A DNA stretch of 64,000 nt. Origin: Synechococcus sp. KORDI-52 (GTDB lineage Bacteria > Cyanobacteriota > Cyanobacteriia > PCC-6307 > Cyanobiaceae). The position numbers and the translations under genes are program-made. The stretch lies in assembly GCF_000737595.1 (NCBI RefSeq), contig NZ_CP006271.1, positions 1,364,001 through 1,428,000 on the forward strand, in the 5' to 3' direction. Under the pieces are notes generated by a model. It had not been told where the DNA came from. It was given only the letters and a program-made list of their open reading frames with translations, and ran no database searches. Shown here piece after piece: positions 1 to 16,673 of the stretch (positions are counted from its first letter, which is position 1; the number at the start of each line of letters is the position of its first letter).

Positions 1-1611
1 ATTCAGGGATGGCGTGCCGTTGGTGATGACGGAGTGTTGGAAGGCCTGGAACTGGGTCTGTGTGATTTGGCCGGTGGACTTGTTGATGGAGAGAGAGAAG
101 ACCGGATTGCCGCTGGTGATGCCAGTTGAATCGGTACGGCCCTCGATGGTGCGTGAGTCAGGTGAGAGATAGGCGTAGACCGGAGTTGCAGCGTTATCGG
201 AGAGTGTGAGCCCTGTTGTGAAAGCCCCATCAGAGCCGATGGAAGTGCCAGAGAGCTGGAAGGTGAAGCCACTACCAGCGGGATCAATGACAACGTTTGC
301 GGGAGGATCTGAGTTATCGGCGCCGTAGTCGGGAGTGACGGCGTTAATGAATGCGTTAGCGAGAACGTTTGAGGTGTCTGTATCAGCAAGTTGTTTGTCG
401 TTGCCGTCTGAGAGACCGCCATCGCCTGTGAGCAGTTCGAGCCCACTGAGAATGGGTGAGACGGCGGAGGTTTCGGTTGGGCCGTCATCGGCGAACTGGA
501 TGTTTCCACCAAGATCGATCGAGGCATCGGCACTCAGACTTTGCCCGGATGCATAGGTGTCGGTGACCGTTGCGGTCAGCTGAATCTGGTTGTTAGCCAG
601 AAACATTTTGTCGAGCAGTGTTGCTGCATTGCTTGTGGTTGTGTCAATCCCGTTGACGTGTTCAATGGGTAAGAACTGTTGGAATGTCAGTATTCCGTTT
701 GAAGAATCAATCGATACGGTGAAGACCTTTGTGCTGTTATTGATGTTTGAAAGTGAAGTTGTCCCAATGATGACCCCATTATCTTCGATGATAAAAATGT
801 CGTTGGTTCCGCTTTTTAGGGCCGCAGTTTGAGATTTCTCGTTGTCTCCATTGAGTTGTGTTCCTTCGGGAACCTTTAATTCGAGGCTGTAGGAGATGTC
901 TCGGGAGATTAATCCCGGCGCATTGTTTGGTTTGACGGTGAAGTTGGCAGCAAAGCTGACGACAGCGATTGCTCCCAATCCTGTTGGGCCGACGATTGAA
1001 GGAACATTTTTAGCTTGATCATCGCTGGATTGAGCCCCAACAAAATTTCCGTTGTTCAGGCCACCATCGAAGACCAATACATCACCGAAATCCTTTGCGG
1101 TGATGCTTGGGTCTGTCGGCTCTGGCGACGGCCCAGGTGTCGGCCCAGGTGTCGGCCCAGGCGTCGGACCAGGTGTCGGACCAGGTGTTGGTGTTGGCTC
1201 CGGTGTGGGCTCTGGAGCTGGTTCGGGCGTCGGTTCTGGATCAAGCGCTTCCTGCCTGGCTGGGTCGTCATCGAATGGGACGCCATCAAGAATTGCCTGT
1301 GCCAGCACTGATGGCACCAAAACAACCACATCACCCGGTGCAAATGCCTGGTCTTCCGTCGGTAGATCACCCCCACCCAAGCCGGAAGGAGAGAGAAGCG
1401 GATCACCGGCAATCAGAACCCGAGCGTCTGGTGGCGGTAGCTGTTCAACAGTTTCTGAATACCCCAGATAGTCCGTGAGTGGCACCGGCGTGTAACCCTC
1501 AGGATTTGGGGTTTGGCCTGCAGCTTGATAATCCTGTGCAGATTTCAGTGCTCCCGCGAGCTGGTTGCTTGTTTCCTGGTCTTGGGCATTACCGAGGAGC
1601 TCTTCAAACAT
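1..1611 (-). CDS. Giant type I-secreted repeat protein A, 5' part only
   Basis: An open frame of 537 codons starts at the ATG at 1609-1611 and runs off the window, so the 3' end is missing. The N-terminus parallels that of the complete giant protein next door: both have YQ(A/S)AGQ(T/S)P, then a DYLGxSE motif, then QLPPP. A linker of repeated Thr-Pro-Gly-Pro and Thr-Pro-Glu-Pro follows (DNA about 1130-1240). Then come repeat segments with the NAVTPDYGADN and LTGDGGL motifs typical of T1SS-143/DUF5801 repeats. These families are exported by type I secretion and act at the cell surface or outside; adhesion is an inference. Other open frames over this stretch are shadows caused by the low-complexity linker. 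The frame stays open to base 1. Confidence 0.85.
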   Translation of the reverse strand, partial: MFEELLGNAQDQETSNQLAGALKSAQDYQAAGQTPNPEGYTPVPLTDYLGYSETVEQLPPPDARVLIAGDPLLSPSGLGGGDLPTEDQAFAPGDVVVLVPSVLAQAILDGVPFDDDPARQEALDPEPTPEPAPEPTPEPTPTPGPTPGPTPGPTPGPTPGPSPEPTDPSITAKDFGDVLVFDGGLNNGNFVGAQSSDDQAKNVPSIVGPTGLGAIAVVSFAANFTVKPNNAPGLISRDISYSLELKVPEGTQLNGDNEKSQTAALKSGTNDIFIIEDNGVIIGTTSLSNINNSTKVFTVSIDSSNGILTFQQFLPIEHVNGIDTTTSNAATLLDKMFLANNQIQLTATVTDTYASGQSLSADASIDLGGNIQFADDGPTETSAVSPILSGLELLTGDGGLSDGNDKQLADTDTSNVLANAFINAVTPDYGADNSDPPANVVIDPAGSGFTFQLSGTSIGSDGAFTTGLTLSDNAATPVYAYLSPDSRTIEGRTDSTGITSGNPVFSLSINKSTGQITQTQFQAFQHSVITNGTPSLN

Positions 1612-1790: not shown

Positions 1791-1964
1791 TTGAGTTCAG
1801 GAGAGTTGAGTTACTTCTTGAGTTGGCTCTTAGTTTTTTCTCACTTTTTTCTCAGTCAGCCTCTTGGCATTCACTGGTGCGGTGCACTCTCAGTACCGAT
1901 GCAGGGGCGCTGCGGATGCCCCAATCCGGTGGACTGTCTTCGCCATGGCTGGATGTGGTTTGAG

Positions 1965-2285
1965 CTGTTGGCTGCGCGAGGCCCTTTGCTGCCGTCGCTG
2001 ACGACGGCCCTCATCCATGCCTTGGACCCTGGTGATTCCTTTGTTACGACTGCAGATCTGATCGTTTTTGCGAGGAACCACGTGTTGTTGTCGTGATCAG
2101 ATCGCCCACCAGCATTGGGGACACAAGGTGCTTTCGCAACGAACGCAAGACGTCTCTTACGGTTTGGATCTGAATCGGCGTCAGCCCCTGGATCAGATCA
2201 TCCATCAGCATGATCCAGTTGTCGCCGATCAGCTCTGGGGTTGTTGACCAAGGCTGGCCATGAAGCTCTATCACGCTTCACCGTC
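1965..2285 (-). pseudogene. Decayed 3' fragment of a type I secretion ABC transporter
   Basis: Translation in one frame from about 2240 to 2100 gives LMDDLIQGLTPIQIQTVRDV, which matches the Walker B end of the intact transporter at 11075-13225 (LIDDLSQGLSPDQFQTFIDV). After a frame change, 2081-1970 gives DQICSRNKGITRVQG, matching DQICILDKGVTSFQG at the same protein's C-terminus. The homology even continues into the bases after the stop codon. No start or upstream domains remain, so this is a frameshifted remnant, not a gene. The adaptor gene that follows the intact copy is absent here. Confidence 0.8.
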
Positions 2286-2357: not shown

Positions 2358-2756
2358 TCAGCCATCCATGGCGTCAACACCAAATGAACTGCTTGGTGCT
2401 TCCACTGAGGCCTCCATCAGTGTCATGTCCAGTGCAGAGAACACCGATCCGGCATCAAAATTGCCCAATTCATCCTGATCCATCTCCAGGGCATTGGTTT
2501 CTGTTTCCTCGTTGATCAGGTCTTCGGCAATGGAGTTGAGAACCTGTTGCTCGATGCTTGAGAATTCATTGGCATCGAGCTGATTCTCATCTAAAAAATC
2601 ACTGACGAGTGAATCGAGTTCATACATCAGATCTGCTTGCCTGGTTTCAGATCCGGGGGGCTCGTTCCCACCGTTTCGCGCAACCTCAAGAAATTGATCA
2701 ACCAAATCCGAGATTGAGTGTGTGATGTCTTCTATTGAAGGATTAAGATTGGCCAT
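2358..2756 (-). CDS. Small acidic protein downstream of the giant protein
   Basis: This 132-residue protein starts three bases after the stop of the giant gene, so the two are very likely cotranscribed. It is strongly acidic, with no Cys, no signal peptide and no membrane segment. It contains SDLVDQFLEV near residue 16, which resembles the ELVDQYLET motif found twice in the giant protein's acidic C-terminus. I do not recognise the family. It could be a cosecreted partner or a piece split from the C-terminal secretion signal of the giant protein; both are inferences. It sits between the giant gene and the transporter remnant, so it may also be a relic of the duplication that shaped this locus. 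Confidence 0.65.
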   Translation of the reverse strand: MANLNPSIEDITHSISDLVDQFLEVARNGGNEPPGSETRQADLMYELDSLVSDFLDENQLDANEFSSIEQQVLNSIAEDLINEETETNALEMDQDELGNFDAGSVFSALDMTLMEASVEAPSSSFGVDAMDG

Positions 2757-2759
2757 GGC

Positions 2760-5700
2760 TCAAACAGCGGCGGAGGAATAGTCTTCCCCAACATCAGGTG
2801 AAATTGTCTCAAAGCTATCGTCCATTGAAATTTCAATCATTTCAACCTCAAGGTCGAGATCGTCTTCGCTGACTTCTTCAGTTCCGCGTTCATTCAATGT
2901 GGATTCTTCCCCTTCCATCTCATCTCCCAATGAATCCGATTCGGATTCCATGGACATCAGATCCTGTTCAACCTCGGCAGCTATCTCATTCCCCACAGGA
3001 TTAGTTTCCAAGTACTGGTCAACTAACTCTGAAGTTGAGGCAGTGCTGGATGCGTCAGCCTCGGCAGCTGTCTCATCCTCCACAGGGCTTGTTTCCAGGT
3101 ATTGGTCAACTAGCTCGGCTGTTAATGCAATGCCTGATGCTTCACCCCTCGCAGTTGACTCTGTCCCCAATTGATCACTTTGATTGTTGTTTGATGATTG
3201 ATCCTCTTCCAGTACTGTTCTGGCAAAGGTTGTATCCTCTGCCAAACCCACCGAGCCGTCCTCATAGTTGATGTTCGCCTGGCCTAACACCGTGACATCG
3301 CCATCGGCATCGCTACGTTCTTGACTGGATTCCCTGTATGTTAAATCGATGCTTTCAATGCCTAGCTCTGAAAGTGTGAGGAGTTCCCCCTCATCAGTCT
3401 TTGCGTCAGAATTCAAGTCTTGCCAGACTGCAAAGTTGGCGAATTGTTCGTCTTGCTCACTCAATACACCATCTTGATTGGTGTCGAATACCTCAGCGAC
3501 CGCTTCAAGATCAGTTTTGGCCTGATCACTCCATTCGGTGAAAGCAAATTCTTTGGTCTGATTGATCGTTCCAGATTGATCTGCATCAATCACCAGTAAT
3601 CCATCATCAGGAGCAACCCAGGCGATATTGCTCACTACATTCGTTTCAACATCTTCAAAACTTTGACCTTCTCCACGAGATAGGTAGTTAATCTTGCCGT
3701 CGCTGTTCAAATCTATGCTGATTGGATTCACATTGGGAAGGATAGCTAAGAAACTCGTTTCTACGAATTCTTCGAGTGAAACAATCGTGAAGTTATCAAT
3801 CCTCAATGTTTCGCTATTGGAGCTTGTGAGAACGTGAATTTCTACTTGAAGTTCACCATTTGTGTTAAGCGTAGCTTGAAAATTAAATTGTTGGTTGTTG
3901 TTTCCGGCAGGCTGGAGAACGGTCGATCCGTTGGCACGGACTCTGAATCTGTCATTTTGGCCGCCGAATGTTTCCCAGTTAGTTTGAGTTTCTGCGTCAA
4001 AACTTACTTCGACTTGTTTGCCTGCATTGTCTTGGCCAAATTCAAAGGTTTTGGTTGCTTCGCGGGAGTTCCCACTTCTTATTTCGAGTTCACCGTTATT
4101 GTTGATAATACCGCCCTGTGATGACCAGCTGCTATTGCTGTTCTCAAACTCATCTCGATATAGTTGCGTATTAGCGGGGATAGTGTTTGCGTTTGCAGTG
4201 CCCAGCTCGATATCGAATTCAATTGAGTCAATGTCATCGTCGCCATCTTTTACTTTTAGATTGAACTCAATATCTTCTTGTTGACCCGTCGCTATGATCT
4301 GCAGAGAATCATTCGCGGTAACGTCTGAATTGAGATTCAGGACGGCAACTGCGCTTCCTGCTTTAGAAATTGTCAGTTCAACGTTTTGTGCAGTCGCCCC
4401 CTGGGATATTACACCTGTATATCCTTGGGTTATAAACTCAATGTCATAGCCGGCCAGGGCGTTTATGCCATCAGCGCCGAAGTTCCATGAAGCTAGGTTT
4501 TGATTAGCATATGTTGCGTTTATGTTTTCAACTTGGATTAGCACCGCCCCAGGCAGTTGTGGGCCCGTAAGTTGCACATTGCTAATGCCTTCGATTGTTG
4601 CAATTTCACTTTTTTGAGTTGTTTCGCCGCCAACCCAGAATTCAAAGTCTCCGTTGGAGTCCAGGGTTCCTGTTACCTGTGCTGTATGGCTAAAGGTGAA
4701 ATTTGTATTGACATTGCTTGGCGGGGCATAGGTAATTCCTTGGGTCGCTAAATTATCGTAAAACGGCTCGTCTTGAGGGTATCCTGTTGCTCCTGCGTTA
4801 GCGTTATAAAAGAAGATCTCATCGGCTGTTGCGCTTGATCCAGGCCCGCCATTTAAGCGCCAAGCCGCTTCCTGTATTGGGTTGTCTGGTATGAAAATGG
4901 ACCAATTGTCATCGAAGAAGTTTGCAAACACATTGCCACTGCTATCCCCAACGCCGTCATAATTCCAGGATCCGCTGATCTCTACATCTAGGTCAATAGT
5001 TATTGTCTGGTTGGCGTATATGGAATCAAAGTTTAGTGCAATTCTGCTGAAATCACTGTAGTTGAAATTGGGTGTTCCGTCGATTTGATTGTCTCCTCTA
5101 TCGTCTCCAACAACTACATTGAATTGCAGTTGCTGGCTTGCTGTAAATATCCCTGCATCGATCTCTGGGCCGTCATCACCGAATTGGATGTTGCCGCCGA
5201 GATCGAGAGAGGCTGTGGCTGTGGAGGAGGAATCGCCGTCGGAATCGGTGGTGGCTGTGGCGGAGGCGTTGAGTTGGATCAGGCCGTCGGCGAGCGAAGC
5301 GAGGTCTTCTGGGGATGAGATGTAGGCGCCGTTGTAGGTCTGTGGGAGTGGGTGATCAATCGCGAGGGATTGGGTCAAGGTGACCACGCCCGTCGTGGAA
5401 TTAACGGCGAGGGTGAACGCGGTATTGCCGCCCGCGGAACCTGTGATTACACCGCCGGATTCGGAGAGGGTGATGGCGGTGCCGCCACTGGTGAGACCAG
5501 AGTCGGTCGGACCTGTGAGAGCGAGTGCATAGGAGACGGTGCTTGCGGAGCCAGGGCCATCGGCGCCGTAATCAGAGAGGTTGCCTGGGGTGAAGGCGGA
5601 GGAGAAATCAACTTCCGCAATGACAGGAGATGCGTTGGTGTCACCCGCGAGCTCCGCGCCGACGAAATTGCCGGCGGGGGAGAGGCCACCGTCGAAGGTC

Positions 5701-8700
5701 AAGGCGATGGGTTCGGTGCCGGAGACCACCAAGGTGGGATTGCCGGGGCCGTCATCACCGAATTGGATGTTGCCGCCGAGATCGAGAGAGGCTGTGGCTG
5801 TGGAGGAGGAATCGCCGTCGGAATCGGTGGTGGCTGTGGCGGAGGCGTTGAGTTGGATCAGGCCGTCGGCGAGCGAAGCGAGGTCTTCTGGGGATGAGAT
5901 GTAGGCGCCGTTGTAGGTCTGTGGGAGTGGGTGATCAATCGCGAGGGATTGGGTCAAGGTGACCACGCCCGTCGTGGAATTAACGGCGAGGGTGAACGCG
6001 GTATTGCCGCCCGCGGAACCTGTGATTACACCGCCGGATTCGGAGAGGGTGATGGCGGTGCCGCCACTGGTGAGACCAGAGTCGGTCGGACCTGTGAGAG
6101 CGAGTGCATAGGAGACGGTGCTTGCGGAGCCAGGGCCATCGGCGCCGTAATCAGAGAGGTTGCCTGGGGTGAAGGCGGAGGAGAAATCAACTTCCGCAAT
6201 GACAGGAGATGCGTTGGTGTCACCCGCGAGCTCCGCGCCGACGAAATTGCCGGCGGGGGAGAGGCCACCGTCGAAGGTCAAGGCGATGGGTTCGGTGCCG
6301 GAGACCACCAAGGTGGGATTGCCGGGGCCGTCATCACCGAATTGGATGTTGCCGCCGAGATCAAAGTCAGCAGTGGCGGTGGTTGTATCACCGTCGCCAT
6401 CGGTGAGAGTGATGGACTGCTGAACGCTGAGTTGGCTGTCGGCGAGGGTCAGATTGTCATCGCTGTAGGGCTGAGCGGACTCAGGCCCATCAGAAGCACC
6501 AGCAGCAGTGGTGTGATCGAGATTTCTAAATTGTCTGACAGTAACTTTGCCGTTGTTTGTATTGATTTTGATTTGGAAGACCTTGGTGCTCGATCCCTCG
6601 AGGACTCCTGCGTATTTTGTGCCTGAATCGATTTCGCTCCAAACGACGTTGGTGCCATCGCTGGTCCAACCGGTTCCGGCGGTGCCGGAGAGATCGTTGA
6701 CCTGTTTTCCGATGTTGTTGACATCGAAGACCAGCTGGTAAGTGGGTGTACCTAGTGAGCCGCCATCGGTCCCAGGATCTGAGGTGGTGGAGAAGACAGC
6801 CTGGACGTTTGCGGCGGCCAGTGTTGCGGTGTCAGAGTTGCCCGGGGTCGCAGGTATATCAATTCCGTTCCCACTATCAAATTGATAGTTGCCGTTTTTG
6901 GTGGTGTTTCCGTCGTAGGTGATGGCGACGCCAAGCGAGTTCTCGTCAGCGTCGATAGAGAGAATTGGCCCATCGTCCTGGATGGAGAAGACTGAGAAGC
7001 CGTCTGTGCTGGTGGAGCCACTGAGATCAGCTGTGCTCGAGGCGAAATCACCATCGGCATCCGTGACGGTCTGTTGCAGTCCGAGGGAGCCATTGGTGAC
7101 GATGAGACGTCCGCTGTTGGCGGTGGGACCGCCCTCATCAAAATTGTTGGTGTCGTTGTGCCAGACGTTTTTCTGCTGGCTGAAGGTGACGCTGGTGCCT
7201 GTATTGGCGATGGTGAAGTAGCTGTCGGCTGCGTCCGTTGCGGCAGGGAGGACGCCATAGATGGTTCCGACGTCTCCGCCCGTGAGGGTGGAGCCTTCAA
7301 CGAGGATCAGCTGCTCGCCTTGTCCGTAGCCATCGACAGTGGTTTCCGTATCTGTGGGATCGAGTGCATAGATGCCGGAGAGGATGTCCCCGGATTGTGA
7401 GGATGTCTGTGTGAGCGTCAGTGCGTAGGCGACAGAGCCTGGACCATCGGCGCCGTAGTCGACCTGAAGCCCAGCGGTTGCGGAGTTCGCATCGGTGAAG
7501 ACGCCGGCGAGATCTGCCGAGGCGGTATCAGTGCCCGGGGGATTTTCTGCGTTTTCGCCGTTGGCGGTGTCTGCTCGATCGTCTCCGACGGGCCTGGTTT
7601 CGTCGAGGATGAGGCTGTCAGCGAGGGCTCTCAGAACAGCAGTGGGATTGGAGACGGTGCTGGAGATTGGACCGTCATCCCCGAACACGAAGGCGCTGGC
7701 GACATCAGCGGAGGTGACGGAGTCATTGGTGACGACGTCACCGTCAGCATCGGTGGTGGTGACGTCGGCGGTGATGGAGAGATTCAGACCACCATCAGCG
7801 AGGTCCACGCGATCATTGGAATATTCACCGTCGACGTTGGCCAGACCTGAGCCGTCTTTAAGAATGTTCGACTGCGCAAGTGCCTGGAGCTGAGTTTGTG
7901 AGACCTCGCCTGTGGCTCCATCAATCTGGATGGTGAAGGCAGTGTTTGCCGGTGTGATCGAACCGTTGGCATCTGTGCTGCCGGTAAGGGTCTGCCCGTC
8001 GGCAGACAGGTAGGCATAGACGATGGTGGTGCCATCGGAGAGGGTCAACCCTGTATCGACGCCAGTGGTGTTGCCTGTGGTGAGACCGGTTGTGGAGGAG
8101 GCGAACTGGAAGCTGGAGGCAGATTGCGAACCAGGATTATCAGCGCCGTAGTCGGGAGTGACGGCGTTGATGAACAGCTGAGCGACATCAATGCCATCGG
8201 CGTTATCGGAAGCGGGTAGAGCGGTGTCGTTGCCGCCGGGCAGCCCACCATCACCGGTGAGCAGATCGAGTCCGGTGAGGTCTGCGGTGACGGCTGTGGT
8301 TTCGAGCGGACCATCGTCGGCGAATTGAATGTTCCCGCCGAGATCAAAGAATGCAGTCGCTGTTTGGACATCACCGCTTATTGATGTTTCTGTAACCGTC
8401 GCGCTGAGGATGAGGGCTCCATTCTCAAGCAGCATTAAATCTAAATTCGTTGCTGCATTGCTCAGGGTGTTATCGATGCCATTGGTGTGATCAATGGGCT
8501 TGAACTGTTCAACAATGACGATGCCGTCTCTTGCTCCAACGCTGACTTCGAAGACAACATTTTGAGAATTACTGCTTGTATCGTTTGGATCAAGCGAACC
8601 GAAATAGCTGTTATTTGTTGCGTCGAAAATCAGGAAGACCGGTGAGCCGCCACTTGTGAGCGTTAGTTGATCGCCGTTGTTGAAACCCTGCGCAAAATCA

Positions 8701-9362
8701 ATGCTGTAGTTAACGTCTTGTATTGCACCAGGAGCGGCACCACCGATACTGAAGTTGTTTGAGAAGTCGACTTTGGAAATGAGTGGGCTGCCATCCGAAT
8801 CTTCCCGTGATTGCGTGCCAACAAAATTCCCGTTGATTCCACCGTCAAACGTTAAGAGCGTTCCGAAATCTTCAGCTTCAATCCTGAGGGGGACGGGATC
8901 TGGATCAGGAGTTGGTTCGGGAGTTGGTGTTGGATCGGCGTCGGCTGCAGGAGCCACTGCAGGATCGACATCCACGTCCAGGTCTTCAAGAGCCGCTTGA
9001 ACGGCTGGGTCTTCGTCTTCGAACGCAACACCGTTATCGATGGCCGCTGCCAGCGCTTCCGGCACGAAAACCAGCGCACCCTCTGGGGCCAGTGCCAGGT
9101 CTGCCGCCGGCAGATCCGCTCCTCCCAATGTGGCGGGTACCAGAACTGGATCAGCCCCGCTGATGAGCACATCAAAAGCTGGTGGGGGTAGTTGTGTAAA
9201 ACTTTCTGAAAATCCCAGGTAGTCGTTCAGGGGAACCCCTTTGAAACCAGCGGGAGTTGGGCTTTGGCCAGCACTTTGATAATTCTCTTCCGAACCCGAA
9301 CCGACAGACAGCTGGTTTGACGTTTCCAGACTTTGGGCTTGGGCGTCGAATTCGAATTCCAT
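2760..9362 (-). CDS. Giant type I-secreted T1SS-143/DUF5801-type repeat protein B (2,200 aa)
   Basis: Likely a cell-surface or released protein exported by the adjacent type I system. There is no Sec signal peptide. Residues 1-137 are an acidic N-terminal head; 138-158 are a Pro-Thr-Glu linker. Then follow about eight long repeats, each carrying the LDLGGNIQFGDDGP or similar FGDDGP signature and YGADGPGS motifs. Residues about 1013-1206 and 1206-1399 are identical, from a 579-bp tandem DNA duplication. Residues about 1885-1970 hold Ca-binding-like loops such as DTNQDGVLSEQDE. The last 200 residues are highly acidic with two ELVDQYLET motifs, as expected for a C-terminal type I export signal. 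Classic RTX nonapeptides are not obvious. An adhesin or S-layer-like role is inferred, not shown. Confidence 0.9.
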   Translation of the reverse strand: MEFEFDAQAQSLETSNQLSVGSGSEENYQSAGQSPTPAGFKGVPLNDYLGFSESFTQLPPPAFDVLISGADPVLVPATLGGADLPAADLALAPEGALVFVPEALAAAIDNGVAFEDEDPAVQAALEDLDVDVDPAVAPAADADPTPTPEPTPDPDPVPLRIEAEDFGTLLTFDGGINGNFVGTQSREDSDGSPLISKVDFSNNFSIGGAAPGAIQDVNYSIDFAQGFNNGDQLTLTSGGSPVFLIFDATNNSYFGSLDPNDTSSNSQNVVFEVSVGARDGIVIVEQFKPIDHTNGIDNTLSNAATNLDLMLLENGALILSATVTETSISGDVQTATAFFDLGGNIQFADDGPLETTAVTADLTGLDLLTGDGGLPGGNDTALPASDNADGIDVAQLFINAVTPDYGADNPGSQSASSFQFASSTTGLTTGNTTGVDTGLTLSDGTTIVYAYLSADGQTLTGSTDANGSITPANTAFTIQIDGATGEVSQTQLQALAQSNILKDGSGLANVDGEYSNDRVDLADGGLNLSITADVTTTDADGDVVTNDSVTSADVASAFVFGDDGPISSTVSNPTAVLRALADSLILDETRPVGDDRADTANGENAENPPGTDTASADLAGVFTDANSATAGLQVDYGADGPGSVAYALTLTQTSSQSGDILSGIYALDPTDTETTVDGYGQGEQLILVEGSTLTGGDVGTIYGVLPAATDAADSYFTIANTGTSVTFSQQKNVWHNDTNNFDEGGPTANSGRLIVTNGSLGLQQTVTDADGDFASSTADLSGSTSTDGFSVFSIQDDGPILSIDADENSLGVAITYDGNTTKNGNYQFDSGNGIDIPATPGNSDTATLAAANVQAVFSTTSDPGTDGGSLGTPTYQLVFDVNNIGKQVNDLSGTAGTGWTSDGTNVVWSEIDSGTKYAGVLEGSSTKVFQIKINTNNGKVTVRQFRNLDHTTAAGASDGPESAQPYSDDNLTLADSQLSVQQSITLTDGDGDTTTATADFDLGGNIQFGDDGPGNPTLVVSGTEPIALTFDGGLSPAGNFVGAELAGDTNASPVIAEVDFSSAFTPGNLSDYGADGPGSASTVSYALALTGPTDSGLTSGGTAITLSESGGVITGSAGGNTAFTLAVNSTTGVVTLTQSLAIDHPLPQTYNGAYISSPEDLASLADGLIQLNASATATTDSDGDSSSTATASLDLGGNIQFGDDGPGNPTLVVSGTEPIALTFDGGLSPAGNFVGAELAGDTNASPVIAEVDFSSAFTPGNLSDYGADGPGSASTVSYALALTGPTDSGLTSGGTAITLSESGGVITGSAGGNTAFTLAVNSTTGVVTLTQSLAIDHPLPQTYNGAYISSPEDLASLADGLIQLNASATATTDSDGDSSSTATASLDLGGNIQFGDDGPEIDAGIFTASQQLQFNVVVGDDRGDNQIDGTPNFNYSDFSRIALNFDSIYANQTITIDLDVEISGSWNYDGVGDSSGNVFANFFDDNWSIFIPDNPIQEAAWRLNGGPGSSATADEIFFYNANAGATGYPQDEPFYDNLATQGITYAPPSNVNTNFTFSHTAQVTGTLDSNGDFEFWVGGETTQKSEIATIEGISNVQLTGPQLPGAVLIQVENINATYANQNLASWNFGADGINALAGYDIEFITQGYTGVISQGATAQNVELTISKAGSAVAVLNLNSDVTANDSLQIIATGQQEDIEFNLKVKDGDDDIDSIEFDIELGTANANTIPANTQLYRDEFENSNSSWSSQGGIINNNGELEIRSGNSREATKTFEFGQDNAGKQVEVSFDAETQTNWETFGGQNDRFRVRANGSTVLQPAGNNNQQFNFQATLNTNGELQVEIHVLTSSNSETLRIDNFTIVSLEEFVETSFLAILPNVNPISIDLNSDGKINYLSRGEGQSFEDVETNVVSNIAWVAPDDGLLVIDADQSGTINQTKEFAFTEWSDQAKTDLEAVAEVFDTNQDGVLSEQDEQFANFAVWQDLNSDAKTDEGELLTLSELGIESIDLTYRESSQERSDADGDVTVLGQANINYEDGSVGLAEDTTFARTVLEEDQSSNNNQSDQLGTESTARGEASGIALTAELVDQYLETSPVEDETAAEADASSTASTSELVDQYLETNPVGNEIAAEVEQDLMSMESESDSLGDEMEGEESTLNERGTEEVSEDDLDLEVEMIEISMDDSFETISPDVGEDYSSAAV
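5167..6324. repeat. Two tandem 579-bp direct repeats inside the giant gene
   Basis: Unit 1 spans 5167-5745 and unit 2 spans 5746-6324. A further partial copy of about 40 bases starts at 6325. By eye the two units are identical at every base, including the third codon positions. Since 579 is 193 codons, the reading frame is kept and exactly one protein repeat is doubled. Perfect identity means recent duplication or ongoing gene conversion. It also makes copy number liable to assembly error. Confidence 0.95.
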
Positions 9363-9604: not shown

Positions 9605-11014
9605 TCAGTTTCTCTCGCGGAACGCGGAACCGATGGTGCGGGTGAAGGGCTGAATGATGTACTGCAGCAGGCTGCGCTTTTCACCTTTGATATCCCCCAC
9701 TAGTGGCATTCCCGCTTGAATGGGTAATTTTTTATTTCCAACTTTTATATTCTGTTCTTCGAGTTTCACCCGCGTTGCGTAGTAGTAACCGCCTGTCGTG
9801 GGATCCTGCACCGTGGTGCCGGCGATGGCACTCACCTTGCCCGGCACTGTTCCATAGGTGCTCGAATCAAAAGGCAACAGATTCACATCCACGTCCTGCC
9901 CTGTGCTCACAAAGCCGATGTCTTTGGAGGGAACACGTAGCTCAACAATTTTCTTGCCTTGATTCGGAACCACCTGAAGCACCACAGCCCCTGGGGCGAC
10001 CACAGCTCCTGGGGCCTTGTAGCGCAGATCACTGATCACACCATCCACCGGAGACACGATTTTGGTACGTTCCAGCCGATCGCGAATTTGCTTGATGTTT
10101 TCGCTGATCACAGCCTCTTCTCCCACCAACTCAGCAATTTTCGAGTTGTTTTCGAAGGTCAGGCCTGACTTCAGCCCCCTGAGGTTGGCCTGGGCTTGAA
10201 GCAGTGCCTTTCGGGCTTCATTGCGCGCCCCCACCATCTCGGCCAGTTTTCCTTCCGCTGTGACTAACTGCAGCCTTGAGGAGGCACCAGAAAACAACAG
10301 TTCAGTCCACATCGCCACTTCTTCGCGCTGCAGCTTGATCTGCTCATTCAGCCCATTCACTTCAGCCTTCTTCTCCTGCACCGACGCTTCTGACGCAGCG
10401 ATCTGATCGGCCGTGTTGTCCATGCGGCTCGTCAGCAACTCCTGCTGGGAGTTCTCCACACGCTCATTCGTTCCTGATGCATCGGCAATCTCAAGCTCCT
10501 TTTTGCCCTCGATCGCAGCTTGCAGCTGCTTCTGCTGGATGATCAGATTTTCCAGCTCCTGTTCGGAGGCGTCGTAGGCACTGCCCACCAGCTGGGGATT
10601 GAGTTCCAGCAACACCTGGCCTTTTTTGACCTCCTCGCCATCGAGCACATTCACTTTCGCCACGATTCCACCCTCAAGGTGCTGAACCACATTCACCGAC
10701 CCCTGGGGCACCACCTCCCCGGAGGCCTCCACCACCTGGGTGATCGGTGTCAACGCTGCCAGGGGCACGAACAGAATTGCAGCGCCCCCCAGCAAGTAAA
10801 GGCTGAGGCGCAGGTAGCGATTGTCTGGTTTTTGTTCAAGATCAAGGGCCTGCGACAGCCTTTGCCGCCCCACCAGAGCATTGAGATCGGATTGCTCAAA
10901 GCCTGGGAGTTTCGTCAGCCACGAGCCCGGAGTTCCATTGGACCCTGTTGTGGCGAGCGCTGAGTCCTGGTTTGGGGTTTGATCGGTTGATGCTGAATCA
11001 GAGGAGCTGGTCAT
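9605..11014 (-). CDS. HlyD-family type I secretion adaptor (membrane fusion protein)
   Basis: This 469-residue periplasmic adaptor would connect the inner-membrane ABC transporter to an outer-membrane TolC-like channel; no TolC gene is in the window. A Ser/Thr-rich cytosolic tail of about 68 residues precedes one transmembrane segment (about 69-89). Then comes the first half of a lipoyl-like domain with VQHLEGGIVAKV, a long Gln/Glu-rich coiled coil (about 130-300), the second lipoyl half (VSPVDGVISDL) and a beta-barrel C-terminal domain. Length and order are normal for HlyD/LapC/PrtE proteins. It follows the ABC gene after a 60-base gap and precedes the giant substrate gene, so it is clearly part of one secretion locus. 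Confidence 0.93.
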   Translation of the reverse strand: MTSSSDSASTDQTPNQDSALATTGSNGTPGSWLTKLPGFEQSDLNALVGRQRLSQALDLEQKPDNRYLRLSLYLLGGAAILFVPLAALTPITQVVEASGEVVPQGSVNVVQHLEGGIVAKVNVLDGEEVKKGQVLLELNPQLVGSAYDASEQELENLIIQQKQLQAAIEGKKELEIADASGTNERVENSQQELLTSRMDNTADQIAASEASVQEKKAEVNGLNEQIKLQREEVAMWTELLFSGASSRLQLVTAEGKLAEMVGARNEARKALLQAQANLRGLKSGLTFENNSKIAELVGEEAVISENIKQIRDRLERTKIVSPVDGVISDLRYKAPGAVVAPGAVVLQVVPNQGKKIVELRVPSKDIGFVSTGQDVDVNLLPFDSSTYGTVPGKVSAIAGTTVQDPTTGGYYYATRVKLEEQNIKVGNKKLPIQAGMPLVGDIKGEKRSLLQYIIQPFTRTIGSAFRERN

Positions 11015-11074: not shown

Positions 11075-13225
11075 CTACGGGGTTCTTTGCTGCAGGCGTT
11101 GACGAAGATCCTCAGCCGTGCCTTGGAAACTGGTGACTCCTTTATCAAGAATGCAGATCTGATCCACTTTTTCGAGCAACAACTTGTTGTCAGTGGCGAT
11201 CAGAACGCTGCGCAACTTGCCCGAAAAATGAGACTTACGGAATGTGGGCAGAACATCAATGAAGGTTTGGAACTGATCCGGCGACAGCCCCTGGCTCAGA
11301 TCATCGATCAGCAGAATTGGGGTGTCTTTGATCAGCGCCTGGGCCAGGGATAAAAGACGCAGAACACCCTGCGGAAGCTGATAAACCACGGCTTCATCGA
11401 GGGACGTGGACAACCCTTCGGGCAACGACTCCAGATAATCCAGAATCTTCAACTCAGCCAGGATCTCGCGCACCTTCTTGAGGGTTGCATCCGGGTTCAT
11501 GGCCTGAAGATTGGAGAGGATGGTGCCCGGCAGAAGTTCCGTGGTCTCCATCACAAAGGCGATGTTGTTCTGGATGAGGTCGGTGCTGAATTGCCGGTGA
11601 TCACGGCCGTCGAAGAGGAGTGTGCCGCTGGTGAGTGGATAGATCTGATCGATCACCCGAAGCGAAGCGCTTTTGCCGCAGCCCGCCTTGCCGGTGATCG
11701 CCAGGATCTGGCCTGGGTCAATGGCGAGTGATGTGCGGGTCAGCACCAGGGCATTGTCACGGCCAAGACGGCTCGCAGCTGAATCGAGCAGCACCGCTCC
11801 GAAGAGACGTTGCGATTCATCGGCGGATTTGGGCCGGGATGTCTGCCGCAGCTTGAGGAACTGATTCAGCCTCGTGAACTGTTTGCGCATCGTGTCGAAC
11901 CGCACCATGGCATTCATCAACTGTTGGAAGGGCGTGAACACCCTCCACACGAAAAACATCGCGGCGATCAGCGTTCCGAGCACCGCAGTGTTCGATGGGT
12001 CCGAGTAGGCGATCCACACCCCAGCTGCCAGGGTGAGCACCCCAGCCAGCTGGGCTGCCGTACTCACAATCACCTGAAGACGACCCAGTTGACGATTGAC
12101 AAGCAGGGAGCTGGTGGTGCTCTGGGCCGACAGACCGCGCAGTCGCTGAAGCCAGACCCATTCCAGGTTCGACTGCTTGACTTCGAGGAATCGCCTCACC
12201 AGCTCTTGCTGAGCCTGGGCCACCCCGAGTTCACTGGAGAGATTCATCTCGGTGGCGATGTTGTAAAAACGTCCCAGCACCAGCACGAGCACTGCGGTGA
12301 TGGCCATCAACACCATCGGAATCAGCACCAGCGGCCCTGCAATCAGATAGATCGCCGCGAGGTAGATCACAACAAAGGGGAAATCCAGCAGTGCCAGCGC
12401 CAAGGGTCCCTGCAGATACACCAGCAGGGCATCAAGATTGCGTTGTTGGTTCTGGAAATTTCGGGGACCCAGGACGGACACCTGGTTGGAGTCCAGTTCC
12501 AGGGTTTTCTCGACCAACCGCAGCCCGATGAGGGCGTCGATGCGTGCTGCCAGGCTTGCGAGTTCTCGGCTCCGCCATTGCCTCAGCAACCAGTCGGCGA
12601 AGAACAGCAACACCACACCGATGTACAGCCCGGTGCCCGTAAATCCACTTTCACTTGGAATCACCAGGTTGTAGACGGCCCGGATGTAAAAGGGCACCAC
12701 CAGGGCCAGCAGCGCCATCACGAAACTGATGGCGTAGAGGAGCGTGAGCCGGTTGCGGAACCGATAAAGCACCTTCTGCAGCATCGAGCTGCGATCGGCG
12801 GTGGATGCTTCCTGGAACAGGATCAGATTGCCGCCTGCCCTGAGTGTGTTCAGCTCAAGACGGCCATCGGTGTTCGCTGCGATGACGTCTTCCTCATCGC
12901 CGCGGATCAGCACGTAGGCCTGCTGCTCAGGATCGACGTAGAGCGCCGGCAGGTTGTGGGTTTCCAGCTGTCGCCAGCTTTGAAGAGTCTCCTGGGTGCT
13001 TGTGTATCCCAGCCGCAGCATCAGATTGCGGGCATCGACCGCATCCATGCCGCGAGGATCGTTTCCGAAGAGCTCAAACAGCCGCTCTTGTCGGCCCGTC
13101 CAGGCCAGTTGTTGCAGCAGCAACCGAACACAGAAGGCCATCGGGGCCTCAGCTGTGAGGGTGAGATCCCGCACCAGTTGGGTGCGCGCGAGCGGTTTCG
13201 CCTGTTGCTGAGGGTTGATCGTCAT
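11075..13225 (-). CDS. Type I secretion ABC transporter, Walker A-competent half (716 aa)
   Basis: Fused membrane and ATPase domains in the order N-terminal C39-like domain without a catalytic Cys (about 1-140), six-helix ABC membrane domain (about 160-460), nucleotide-binding domain (about 480-700). The Walker A is intact (GKAGCGKSA, about 510-518). The signature is LPQGV instead of LSGGQ, and Walker B is ILLIDD with Asp in place of the catalytic Glu. The H-loop reads IATDN, so the switch His is missing. It starts on the last base of the upstream ABC gene's stop (TGATG), implying translational coupling. I infer that it pairs with that upstream protein as a heterodimer and exports the giant repeat proteins. 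Confidence 0.92.
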   Translation of the reverse strand: MTINPQQQAKPLARTQLVRDLTLTAEAPMAFCVRLLLQQLAWTGRQERLFELFGNDPRGMDAVDARNLMLRLGYTSTQETLQSWRQLETHNLPALYVDPEQQAYVLIRGDEEDVIAANTDGRLELNTLRAGGNLILFQEASTADRSSMLQKVLYRFRNRLTLLYAISFVMALLALVVPFYIRAVYNLVIPSESGFTGTGLYIGVVLLFFADWLLRQWRSRELASLAARIDALIGLRLVEKTLELDSNQVSVLGPRNFQNQQRNLDALLVYLQGPLALALLDFPFVVIYLAAIYLIAGPLVLIPMVLMAITAVLVLVLGRFYNIATEMNLSSELGVAQAQQELVRRFLEVKQSNLEWVWLQRLRGLSAQSTTSSLLVNRQLGRLQVIVSTAAQLAGVLTLAAGVWIAYSDPSNTAVLGTLIAAMFFVWRVFTPFQQLMNAMVRFDTMRKQFTRLNQFLKLRQTSRPKSADESQRLFGAVLLDSAASRLGRDNALVLTRTSLAIDPGQILAITGKAGCGKSASLRVIDQIYPLTSGTLLFDGRDHRQFSTDLIQNNIAFVMETTELLPGTILSNLQAMNPDATLKKVREILAELKILDYLESLPEGLSTSLDEAVVYQLPQGVLRLLSLAQALIKDTPILLIDDLSQGLSPDQFQTFIDVLPTFRKSHFSGKLRSVLIATDNKLLLEKVDQICILDKGVTSFQGTAEDLRQRLQQRTP

Positions 13226-14958
13226 CAGATGGCCTCCTTCAATGCTGCTTGCAGATCAACTTGTTGGTCGACAAGGCGCTCCATCACCAGGCCACCGCCT
13301 CCGATCAGCACCGTGATGTCGCCATGGCAGCGCCGCAGAATCCGTTCCAGTGCATCCACGAAGGCTTTGCCGTAGGAGCAGTCGGTCAGATCCAACAGCA
13401 ACACCTGAGGATGTCTGCTCAAGGCCGTCACCACCTGGGCCAAGGCCTGGGCATCGCGGGAGAGGCCACTGGACACGCTGCCTCCCATCGCCGTTGTGTA
13501 CCCCTGGGGGAGATTTTTCACCTGCTGATCCAGGCCAGAAAGGTAAGACCAGAACAAGGCACCGCGTCGGTGGCGGCTGGGTTGAAAGCCGGTGAGGTTG
13601 TCCAGAAGTGTGCCGTCAAAAAAAGATCGCGCTGGATCGACGTAGGCCACATCCTGACGGAGCTGATCTCGCTGGAACTCCTCCACTGCAAGTCCGTTCA
13701 GCTCCAGTTGCTGCGTCGGTTTGATCTGAATCAGTTCAAGGAACAGCTGCCGTGCATCCAGACCAAATTGACTGTCCCGCAGCAGAACCGAAGCCCCGCG
13801 CTTGACGGAAACAATGGTTTGACCTGCCCGCTTGATGTTGAGTTCAGGCTGGGCCTTCATCTCGATCAGTTTCTCCCCGCCGCTGGGTTCAACGGGCAGT
13901 GCCATCAATGTGTCGTACTCATCTCTTGAGTGGGCAAGACGGCGATAACTGTTCCACAGCCCGATGGCTTGCTGCCATGGGGAGAGAATTTTGCCCAGCA
14001 GCAGTATCGAGGCTGCCAGGGCACCCACCGAGAGCCATCCATTCACCACCAGCACCGCTCCCCAGGTGACACCGGTGGCGAAGGTGATCTGACTCATCAA
14101 GGAGCCGAAGGCCTGATAGCTGCCGGAGAAGCTGTTATGAATCAGCCGTTGATGCGCCTGTTCCTCCTGGTAGCGCTCGTTGGCCACCAGCAATTGATCT
14201 CTCAGCCCATTGGCTTTGATCAGATCAGAAGCATCAATGAGCCGGTCTTGGTAGGTGCGCGTCTCCAGCTCGATTCGATCCCGCTGGCGGGACAACTGTT
14301 CGAAATCCCTGGAGAAAACGATGGCACGCAGGAGATACACCACGATGGCCAGCACGGCCACAAGACCAATGGTGCCGCCGATCAGAAACAGCACCAGGAT
14401 GAACAACACTGAAAAGGCAAGGTCAATCGCGGTGGTCAGCGATTGCAGTGCGCTTTCATCCCGCAGCAGGTTGATGCTGGTGAGGCGCTGTAGATGCTGA
14501 CCCGGGGCAATGCGCAGAAAATCCGGTAGCCCGAGTTGAAGGAAATGGGACACCGCTTCCAAGCGTTTGTGATGCTCGATGCGGGCTCCATCTGCTCCTG
14601 TTAGCTCCAGCCGGACTGATTTCAACCAGCCACCCAGCAACATCAGCACCACGACGACCGCCGAGAGCACGATCAGGCTGGACATCGATCCGGACGGAAG
14701 AATCGATGTGTAGACGATGTTGATGTAGAGCGGAGACGACAGCTCGAGGAGATTGATCAGCACCGAAGCGATCAAGATCGGTTGAAGCTGATATTCGTTC
14801 CAGTCGACATCCTTGAGCGACTGAAAATAACGGTTGTCTCGGGCTTCACGAACAAGCTCAAGGCAGAGACCGGGCAAGCGTTTCACGGCTTCGGTGAAAC
14901 GTCTCATACCACGAAGTGTCCGACTCCTAAGGTCCGAGCCACTTAGGCTGGCCACCAT
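13225..14958 (-). CDS. Type I secretion ABC transporter, degenerate partner (577 aa)
   Basis: An ABC exporter-type membrane domain (about 55-340) is followed by a badly eroded nucleotide-binding domain. Where the Walker A should be (about residue 390) there is no GxxGxGKS; the sequence reads LLRDSQFGLDAR. The signature region reads LSRDA (about 496-500) and Walker B reads VLLLDLTD, again without the catalytic Glu. No C39-like domain is present. It is the first gene of the secretion run and overlaps the next ABC gene by one base. The protein probably cannot hydrolyse ATP alone; a structural half of a heterodimer is the natural reading. Similar eroded subunits are known among heterodimeric ABC exporters. 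Confidence 0.88.
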   Translation of the reverse strand: MVASLSGSDLRSRTLRGMRRFTEAVKRLPGLCLELVREARDNRYFQSLKDVDWNEYQLQPILIASVLINLLELSSPLYINIVYTSILPSGSMSSLIVLSAVVVVLMLLGGWLKSVRLELTGADGARIEHHKRLEAVSHFLQLGLPDFLRIAPGQHLQRLTSINLLRDESALQSLTTAIDLAFSVLFILVLFLIGGTIGLVAVLAIVVYLLRAIVFSRDFEQLSRQRDRIELETRTYQDRLIDASDLIKANGLRDQLLVANERYQEEQAHQRLIHNSFSGSYQAFGSLMSQITFATGVTWGAVLVVNGWLSVGALAASILLLGKILSPWQQAIGLWNSYRRLAHSRDEYDTLMALPVEPSGGEKLIEMKAQPELNIKRAGQTIVSVKRGASVLLRDSQFGLDARQLFLELIQIKPTQQLELNGLAVEEFQRDQLRQDVAYVDPARSFFDGTLLDNLTGFQPSRHRRGALFWSYLSGLDQQVKNLPQGYTTAMGGSVSSGLSRDAQALAQVVTALSRHPQVLLLDLTDCSYGKAFVDALERILRRCHGDITVLIGGGGLVMERLVDQQVDLQAALKEAI

Positions 14959-15140
14959 TGATTCATCAGTTGTCGCTAAAAATTACATTAGCTTGAACGA
15001 TAGTTGTCGCTTCCAAATTAAGGATTGCAACTCATTTGAGCCTGTGCTGACCCTTTAGAGAGGCGTCAGACATTTTTAAGCACTTGCTTAGATTTCTCAG
15101 CCATCCCTGACTAAGATAATCATACTCGGGATCAGCTCCT

Positions 15141-15815
15141 GTGATTCAGCTTCGCCTGCCGACTGAAAGTCACCATGTGGATCTAGTCGCCAATGATATG
15201 GCGGCCAACGTCTCATTTCAGGTTTTGGGTCCAAATACCGAAGTTGCCTTTGTTGAGGAGCTTATCTGTCAAGAATTCGGTTCGCTCAAGGTTTCGCCCA
15301 ATCAATTGTTTGAATTCTTGAAGACGGATGCCTGGGTCAACGACATGTTCGGCCCTGTGGCACTGCTCCGTGGCGATTTAAATATCAATGCTGATCAACA
15401 CAAAAAAAATCGTTTTCAAGACCAGCCACTCGGGATCAAGCTTGTCGAGGCAGGTCTTCTGAGCCAAAAGGAGCTGGATCAGCTTCTGATCGATTATCAA
15501 CCCTTCGCTCAGCAACAGCGATTTGGTGAATTTCTCCGTCTTAACCTTGCTGTTTCGGCAGAGGTGATTGATTTCCTGCTCAATCCCGCAGCGTCCTTTG
15601 AAGACGGTTTTAACGAGAAGCGCCTCGGCGAAAGGCTTGTTGAGCTTGGCTTGATTAACGCATCCATCTTGGATCAAGCTCTTGAGCAGCAAAAAACCAG
15701 CGGCCAGCGTCTGGGTGAAATTCTGTATGAGGCTGGCGCTCTCTCCCCACAGGCAGCCAAATTCTTCTCAGATGTCCATGTTGATCAAGCTGGTGTCATT
15801 ACGTCTAAAGGTTGA
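15141..15815 (+). CDS. MshEN-domain protein, probable c-di-GMP receptor
   Basis: This 224-residue soluble protein has an unassigned N-terminal part (1-92) and two stretches of MshEN type. The second is textbook: a 24-residue motif starting RLGERLVELG at 161, a five-residue spacer KTSGQ, and a second 24-residue motif starting RLGEILYEAG at 190. MshEN modules (the N-terminal domain of MshE-type ATPases) bind cyclic di-GMP through these paired motifs. The first stretch (96-150) begins PLGIKLVEAG but has a seven-residue spacer, so it may be degenerate. No ATPase domain follows. It is divergent from the secretion operon and tail-to-tail with an EAL gene, which fits a c-di-GMP-dependent regulator of secretion or adhesion. 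That role is inferred. Confidence 0.75.
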   Translation: MIQLRLPTESHHVDLVANDMAANVSFQVLGPNTEVAFVEELICQEFGSLKVSPNQLFEFLKTDAWVNDMFGPVALLRGDLNINADQHKKNRFQDQPLGIKLVEAGLLSQKELDQLLIDYQPFAQQQRFGEFLRLNLAVSAEVIDFLLNPAASFEDGFNEKRLGERLVELGLINASILDQALEQQKTSGQRLGEILYEAGALSPQAAKFFSDVHVDQAGVITSKG

Positions 15816-15914: not shown

Positions 15915-16673
15915 CTACAATTTCGTTTCCAAAACTTGACCTAGCGATACCGCTGCCGTTTGCCTGGGGCTGGCCAAGACTTCAAATTCTTTGACTTTGA
16001 TGGCTTTCGACCAGAGCCATCCTTGACCTTCGTCTACTCCAAATCGTCGGCATAGTGTGAGTTGGGATGCTGTTTCAATGCCTTCAGCACACACGGTGAC
16101 ATTGATGCTGTGGCTTCCCGCCACCAGCCATTCTAAAAACTTCTGCTTTGTGTCGCTGAAATCAATTCCTTTGATGATTTCCTTGTCGACCTTGATCTTG
16201 GAAAAATTAAGATCAAGCATGTTTTTCAGGGGGGAAATTCCTGAACCAAAATCATCTATTGCAATTTCATGTCTATCGCTCAGGTATTGAAGGAATTCAA
16301 GCTCGTTAGATTTCATCACGCACTTTTCTGTCAGTTCTATTTTTAATCTTTTGCCAATTTGTCTTCTGATTCTGTCCAGGTCTTCAACTTCTTTGGACAG
16401 GGTTTTCATGAAGTTCTTTCCATCACCCATAAATTTGGGAGATATATTGATTGAAAGCCAGACGCTCGATTGAATTCTGCTGAGTAAATTTAAGCTCAGT
16501 AGAAATGCTTGTTTTGTTACTTCTAAATTCAAGGTTGGATCATTGTCTAGCTCTTCTAAGATTTCTTCTGTTAAATTTTTGCCATCTGGACGGTAGAGAA
16601 GTTCTCCTCCGCATACACGGTTGGTCTTGATATCGACAATCGGTTGTATTTTAAAATTCTTGTTGTATAGCAT
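15915..16673 (-). CDS. EAL-domain c-di-GMP phosphodiesterase
   Basis: This 252-residue protein is a single EAL domain that would hydrolyse c-di-GMP to pGpG. All expected catalytic and metal-binding residues are visible. They are E24 in the EAL-equivalent GGELLYR, N76 in SINIS, E113 in IELTE, D140-D141 in IDDFGSG, K161 in IKVDK, E197 in CAEGIE and Q217 in GQGW. No sensory or GGDEF domain is attached and there is no membrane segment. The stretch is clearly AT-rich compared with the housekeeping genes. Its ATG directly follows an in-frame TAG that ends a 41-codon open frame, so the true 5' structure is uncertain. Confidence 0.88.
   Translation of the reverse strand: MLYNKNFKIQPIVDIKTNRVCGGELLYRPDGKNLTEEILEELDNDPTLNLEVTKQAFLLSLNLLSRIQSSVWLSINISPKFMGDGKNFMKTLSKEVEDLDRIRRQIGKRLKIELTEKCVMKSNELEFLQYLSDRHEIAIDDFGSGISPLKNMLDLNFSKIKVDKEIIKGIDFSDTKQKFLEWLVAGSHSINVTVCAEGIETASQLTLCRRFGVDEGQGWLWSKAIKVKEFEVLASPRQTAAVSLGQVLETKL

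Follow-up and report, generated by a model that had tools for sequence, protein, structure and literature searches.

A type I secretion ABC pair with conserved loss of ATPase motifs in Synechococcus sp. KORDI-52 and its relatives

The abc1–abc2 pair and its motif states

The stretch of DNA analyzed here (the window) comprises 64,000 nucleotides of Synechococcus sp. KORDI-52 (contig NZ_CP006271.1, positions 1,364,001 to 1,428,000), whose 2.57 Mb genome is a single contig. Its subject is a pair of ATP-binding cassette (ABC) genes, abc1 and abc2, which open an operon-like row on the minus strand that continues with hlyD, a gene for an adhesin-like protein of 2200 amino acids (aa), and a 132-aa gene. 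The transporter genes and their Walker A positions are as follows, in window coordinates.

13225–14958, minus strand: abc1, encoding ABC1 (577 aa; a permease and a degenerate nucleotide-binding domain (NBD) without Walker A)
13750–13776, minus strand: Walker A position of ABC1, reading DSQFGLDAR (residues 395–403)
11075–13225, minus strand: abc2, encoding ABC2 (716 aa; an N-terminal domain, a permease, and an NBD)
11666–11692, minus strand: intact Walker A motif of ABC2, GKAGCGKSA (residues 512–520)
9605–11014, minus strand: hlyD, encoding a membrane fusion protein (TIGR01843, 276.9 bits; cut-off 208.65)

Both transporter frames are open over these coordinates, as the initial annotation had reported, and the abc1 stop overlaps the abc2 start in the sequence TGATG; an AAGGAGG within abc1 closely precedes this overlap. 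The N-terminal domain of ABC2 occupies the position of the C39-like domain of HlyB, and the match of ABC2 to TIGR01846 starts at residue 32.

The motif losses that the initial annotation described are reproduced in the window sequences. In a profile alignment to HlyB, the lost P-loop of ABC1 faces GRSGSGKST; the ABC1 signature reads LSRDA, and both the catalytic Glu (LLLDLTD) and the switch His are gone. ABC2 has LPQGV for its signature, Asp in place of the catalytic Glu (LLIDD), and IATDN where the switch His would stand. Neither subunit has canonical ATPase motifs, and the Pfam profile ABC_tran does not report ABC1 at an E-value of 0.1 or better, while ABC2 ranks 38th of the 43 ABC_tran matches in the whole genome (72 bits). 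The motif table agrees with the earlier statement that no composite site of a heterodimer would be canonical. The annotation had further described the catalytic residues as split and eroded. The erosion is real, but it is not random, as the losses are unequal between the two composite sites. Site I (ABC2 Walker A and B with the ABC1 signature) keeps nucleotide-contact residues and has lost those for hydrolysis, whereas site II (the ABC1 Walker A position with the ABC2 signature) is erased.

The same states are found in the orthologues. ABC1 orthologues occur in 17 of 151 sampled genomes of the family, the window genome included (43–69% identity, E-values of 1e-146 or better), and ABC2 orthologues occur in the identical 17; the six further genomes sampled from the genus of the window have neither. 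Across the phylum, the ABC1 profile matches at 1e-60 in 5 of 292 genomes, all within this family. A separate pattern scan returned 14 loci, seven of them on contigs already counted in the family search, from Synechococcus, Cyanobium, Vulcanococcus, further cyanobacterial metagenome-assembled genomes, and one short contig labelled Flavobacteriales. The motif counts cover 24 sequences of ABC1 (one cut short) and 23 of ABC2, without thinning by identity. In ABC1, the Walker A Lys (0/24), catalytic Glu (0/23), and switch His (0/23) are absent throughout, the signature Ser is kept in 23 of 24, and the second signature Gly is replaced by Asp in all 24. Every ABC2 sequence retains the Lys of Walker A and the Asp of Walker B (23/23 each) and has Asp for the catalytic Glu (23/23); the switch His is never found (0/23), the signature Ser survives once (1/23), and the aligned Q-loop column holds no Gln (0/23). 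Nine canonical ABC proteins placed in the same motif table have the usual motifs. Thus the losses are conserved, and orthologues with normal motifs were not found in the clade.

The genes also remain together. The hlyD gene is present in the window locus and in 16 of 16 other orthologous loci, and the abc1 stop and abc2 frame abut or overlap in the 12 other unfused loci whose junctions were inspected, giving 13 junctions with that of the window. A TAG flagged in abc2 of one genome (G096) is probably the natural stop of the gene, as the open reading frame (ORF) spans query residues 13–714 of 716.

Selection on both subunits was estimated with NG86 as the ratio of nonsynonymous to synonymous substitution rates (dN/dS) in six pairs, which together involve 10 of the 17 genomes. 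Over all codons, dN/dS is 0.097–0.149 for ABC1 and 0.060–0.121 for ABC2, and 0.020–0.178 when the permease and NBD parts are taken separately; the pair of the window and G092 is near synonymous saturation (proportion of synonymous differences (pS) 0.72 and 0.69, all codons). HlyD gives comparable values (0.035–0.179, four pairs). Both NBDs are under purifying selection. The ratios of 0.02–0.18 uphold the earlier view that the proteins are maintained and lie far from the value near one that would have refuted it. These results bear directly on the explanation that the pair is a former exporter in local decay. A truly decayed abc2 fragment does lie close by, and abc2 of genome G121 is interrupted by an in-frame stop, but the identical motif states in 23–24 sequences and the dN/dS range make local decay very improbable, and it was rejected for the clade on the shared losses and these ratios.

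Wider relatives and known exporters

Plasmids were searched with ABC1 proteins, and eight two-ABC loci and three single-ABC controls were examined from among the records listed; as relatives were chosen by similarity to ABC1, the sample is uneven. The eight loci come from Phaeobacter (two), Palleronia (one), Vibrio (two), and Azospirillum (three); the proteobacterial relatives were encountered on plasmids only. Each of the eight continues with an HlyD gene and has as a neighbor a large PA14/cadherin/VCBS/Ig-like protein, of about 1000 to 5500 aa by record coordinates. On the three Azospirillum plasmids, both ABC halves are fused in a single chain. These fusions lie beside giant Ig-like proteins (L066, 7857–11921; L068, 5794–9921; L072, 4875–8966). 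Two further picocyanobacterial two-ABC pairs, L048 (4609–8363) and L049 (11619–15493), have HlyD-like genes and large ORFs alongside. With the L049 ABC1 as query, 14 of the 151 genomes matched at 1e-30, and identity assigns just two of them, G054 and G101, to the L048/L049 type.

The motif states of these relatives are graded, from near-intact to fully motif-dead. Vibrio ABC2 retains the Lys and His and has Asp-Asn in Walker B, and Azospirillum ABC1 retains both Lys and Glu. Both Walker A lysines are lost in four related pairs, namely L048, L049, and the two from Phaeobacter, which are close kin (91.9%). The single-ABC controls from Qingshengfaniella, Marinomonas, and Enterobacter have canonical motifs. 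In a permease-only tree of 61 sequences (26 ABC1, 26 ABC2, and nine canonical ABC proteins), support is 100 for ABC1, 75 for ABC2, and 99 for ABC1 and ABC2 together against the canonical proteins. By this tree the window pair is placed as a member of a wider two-ABC group, and the topology supports an origin of ABC1 and ABC2 in one old duplication. Given the Lys and Glu of Azospirillum ABC1, parsimony suggests that the motifs were lost several separate times. Branch lengths of ABC1 and ABC2 agree closely (r = 0.94, 15 taxa; none of 2000 permutations as high), which is largely expected from shared descent alone.

Judged by homology, the pair resembles type I secretion ABC exporters. HlyB is the best match in the PDB to the ABC1 profile (6.5e-37), the single ABC1 sequence best matches 5l22, an HlyB-subfamily transporter, and both subunits find their best NCBIfam match in TIGR03375 (LssB). 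The window pair resembles HlyB/LssB exporters in homology across permease and NBD, in its HlyD partner, and in its giant neighbor gene. In contrast to those exporters, it consists of two different subunits that have lost catalytic motifs, and these score 250.9 and 175.4 bits, far below the TIGR03375 cut-off of 693.1. LapA/LapB systems combine a giant adhesin, a type I exporter, and a link to cyclic di-GMP (c-di-GMP). The window likewise has a giant adhesin-like neighbor, a type I exporter, and a possible c-di-GMP link; unlike those systems, its genome has no match to Peptidase_C93 (LapG). RtxB and RtxE, the two ABC proteins of MARTX secretion, have canonical Walker motifs. MARTX loci, compared by description only, share with the window the use of two ABC proteins and differ in their gene order, rtxBDE. 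TmrAB-type heterodimers retain one consensus site, whereas the window pair has no canonical site and does not show the arrangement of one consensus and one degenerate site. The asymmetry of the pair, its Glu-to-Asp change, and its altered signature and H-loop are nevertheless features shared with TmrAB, TM287/288, TAP, and CFTR, according to the available portion of PMC7756269. The available text of PMC8277102 calls TmrAB a component of type I secretion in Thermus, and that of PMC3034196 states that both ABC proteins are apparently required for MARTX export. Among the matches listed in a literature search, titles and abstract openings, which cover subscription papers thinly, described no pair of type I secretion ABC proteins that lacks a canonical site.

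A possible mechanism and its alternatives

ATP hydrolysis is commonly regarded as what powers type I secretion. The retention of identical losses in relatives, under selection, raises the question of what drives export here. We propose, and give an even chance to, a type I secretion transporter that is an obligate heterodimer of ABC1 and ABC2 and that binds ATP but has very slow hydrolysis or none. The heterodimer would work with HlyD and some outer-membrane channel and would export the giant adhesin-like proteins whose genes lie downstream. Of the composite sites, site II would be dead. Site I, with its ABC1 LSxD signature, probably binds Mg-ATP, and its hydrolysis would be very slow or absent with the Glu-to-Asp change and the loss of the switch His and the aligned Q-loop Gln. 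ATP binding may then open the conduit or hold it open, with direction coming from elsewhere, for example from folding of the substrate outside or from the proton-motive force.

The natural fusions in Azospirillum and the asymmetric retention of motifs argue for a heterodimer. Co-occurrence in the same 17 of 151 genomes, purifying selection on both NBDs, the tree, the agreement in branch lengths (much of it attributable to shared descent), and HlyD in every orthologous locus likewise count for the proposed transporter. Sites with Glu-to-Asp hydrolyze too slowly to sustain transport, as the accessible part of PMC7756269 indicates, and this, together with contact residues lying mostly in one site that lacks the hydrolysis residues, favors ATP binding as a gate.

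Several observations weigh against this proposal. Some ABC2 sequences carry a Gln one column past the aligned Q-loop position, making loss of the Q-loop less sure, and the A-loop aromatic is absent from all of them (0/23), weakening the case for ATP binding. Complementarity between the subunits is imperfect, as the Walker B Asp persists in ABC1 (22/23) and the second signature Gly in ABC2 (23/23). The hlyD gene of G069 lies in two ORFs, which stands beside the abc2 stop in G121. The two AlphaFold models are poor (mean predicted local distance difference test (pLDDT) 58.1 and 57.1). Finally, the ABC2 half in Azospirillum and Palleronia retains the Lys, Asp-Glu, and His, the signature Ser being lost in their ABC1.

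This near-canonical half also speaks for another explanation, in which site I hydrolyzes ATP usefully through substitute residues, such as the second Walker B Asp and an acidic H-loop residue, and the pair is an ordinary exporter whose active site happens to be unusual. Consistent with this, ABC2 is invariant at the Lys of Walker A and at both Asp of Walker B (23/23), and the H-loop position holds Asp in 19 sequences, Glu in two, and Ser in two. However, in ABC2 the loss of the Glu and His goes together with that of the A-loop aromatic and, probably, of the Q-loop Gln, and four related pairs are without both Walker A lysines, so we consider useful hydrolysis at site I unlikely.

A further explanation, which we regard as rather improbable, gives the pair a non-motor role within a larger complex, where ATP would be hydrolyzed by a canonical type I secretion ABC protein encoded elsewhere. 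HlyB reportedly acts as three ABC transporters within one pump, and two large ABC proteins are encoded elsewhere in the genome (978 and 1075 aa; ABC_tran 120.2 and 116.4 bits). Against such a role, the operon carries its own HlyD and adhesin-like genes, and no extra ABC gene is annotated around the five unfused plasmid loci, for which the gene table is incomplete. Some ABC protein matches in 148 of 151 family genomes, making co-occurrence uninformative on this point.

Returning to the ATP-binding transporter, a broader view can be offered tentatively, and we think it doubtful as a whole: this clade of two-subunit giant-adhesin exporters may have given up ATP hydrolysis repeatedly, keeping an ATP-binding gate in some members, such as the window pair, and no nucleotide chemistry in others (Phaeobacter and the two picocyanobacterial pairs); the work would then fall to folding outside the cell or to the proton-motive force. 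If true, an exporter family without a canonical catalytic site would make the driver of very-large-protein export directly testable, and the range of motif states among relatives adds to that testability.

Neighboring genes and a possible c-di-GMP link

The remaining features of the locus are listed below.

2760–9362, minus strand: adhesin-like protein 1 (2200 aa; DUF5801 in six stretches)
2358–2756, minus strand: 132-aa companion of adhesin 1, with a paralogue after adhesin 2
1951–2233, minus strand: decayed remnant of the abc2 3' end with a broken frame (71% identical in DNA over 288 columns)
1–1611, minus strand: 5' portion of the gene for adhesin-like protein 2 (2151 aa in full, running past the window edge)
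15141–15815, plus strand: MshEN-type-repeat protein (224 aa), a divergent gene (NF053729, 62 bits; cut-off 38)
15915–16673, minus strand: EAL-domain protein near the locus, at most a putative member of the system

From gene order, adhesin-like protein 1 is presumed to be the substrate of the exporter. No outer-membrane channel gene was seen beside the locus, the rest of the genome not having been searched for one, and a scan of 14900–15200 for promoters and terminators found none.

The MshEN protein is present in 15 of 16 other orthologous loci; in G054 about 7.4 kb separate its gene from abc1, in the direction of hlyD, and the 19 kb examined of the G044 locus contain no such gene. Its dN/dS is 0.038–0.174 in three pairs, a fourth being saturated. 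The initial annotation had conjectured a slow or signal-gated exporter. The window protein passes the family cut-off, and nine GGDEF matches occur in the genome, so c-di-GMP input through this neighbor is possible. A receptor of this type would carry two full motifs of 24 residues, set apart by a 5-residue spacer. The strict MshEN half-motif occurs in only two of 16 sequences, with two in none, and the half-motif that follows lacks LxxxLxxQ in the alignment. The MshEN c-di-GMP motif includes LxxxLxxQ, according to the available portion of PMC5013675. A firm c-di-GMP receptor assignment was lowered to a tentative one, this second half-motif being incomplete. Release of the adhesin by a LapG-type protease was rejected on the absence of Peptidase_C93 (PF06035) matches in this genome; of 14 control genomes, only Caulobacter matched.

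The decayed abc2 piece sits between the two adhesin genes and is a local example of real decay. In addition, 54 bases at 1720–1773, upstream of adhesin 2, match a stretch upstream of adhesin 1 (76%). Together, the fragment and this match are best read as a tandem duplication in which the second transporter was lost. Adhesin-like protein 2 likewise has its own 132-aa companion, located beyond it. Relatives of 132–134 aa lie behind adhesin-like genes in the window (2358–2756), L050 (3755–4153), and L047 (14333–14737), and these companions are perhaps secretion helpers. At the Vibrio fortis locus L069, a gene for an HD-domain phosphohydrolase (3959–6811) lies directly upstream of the two-ABC locus, a possible second-messenger link.

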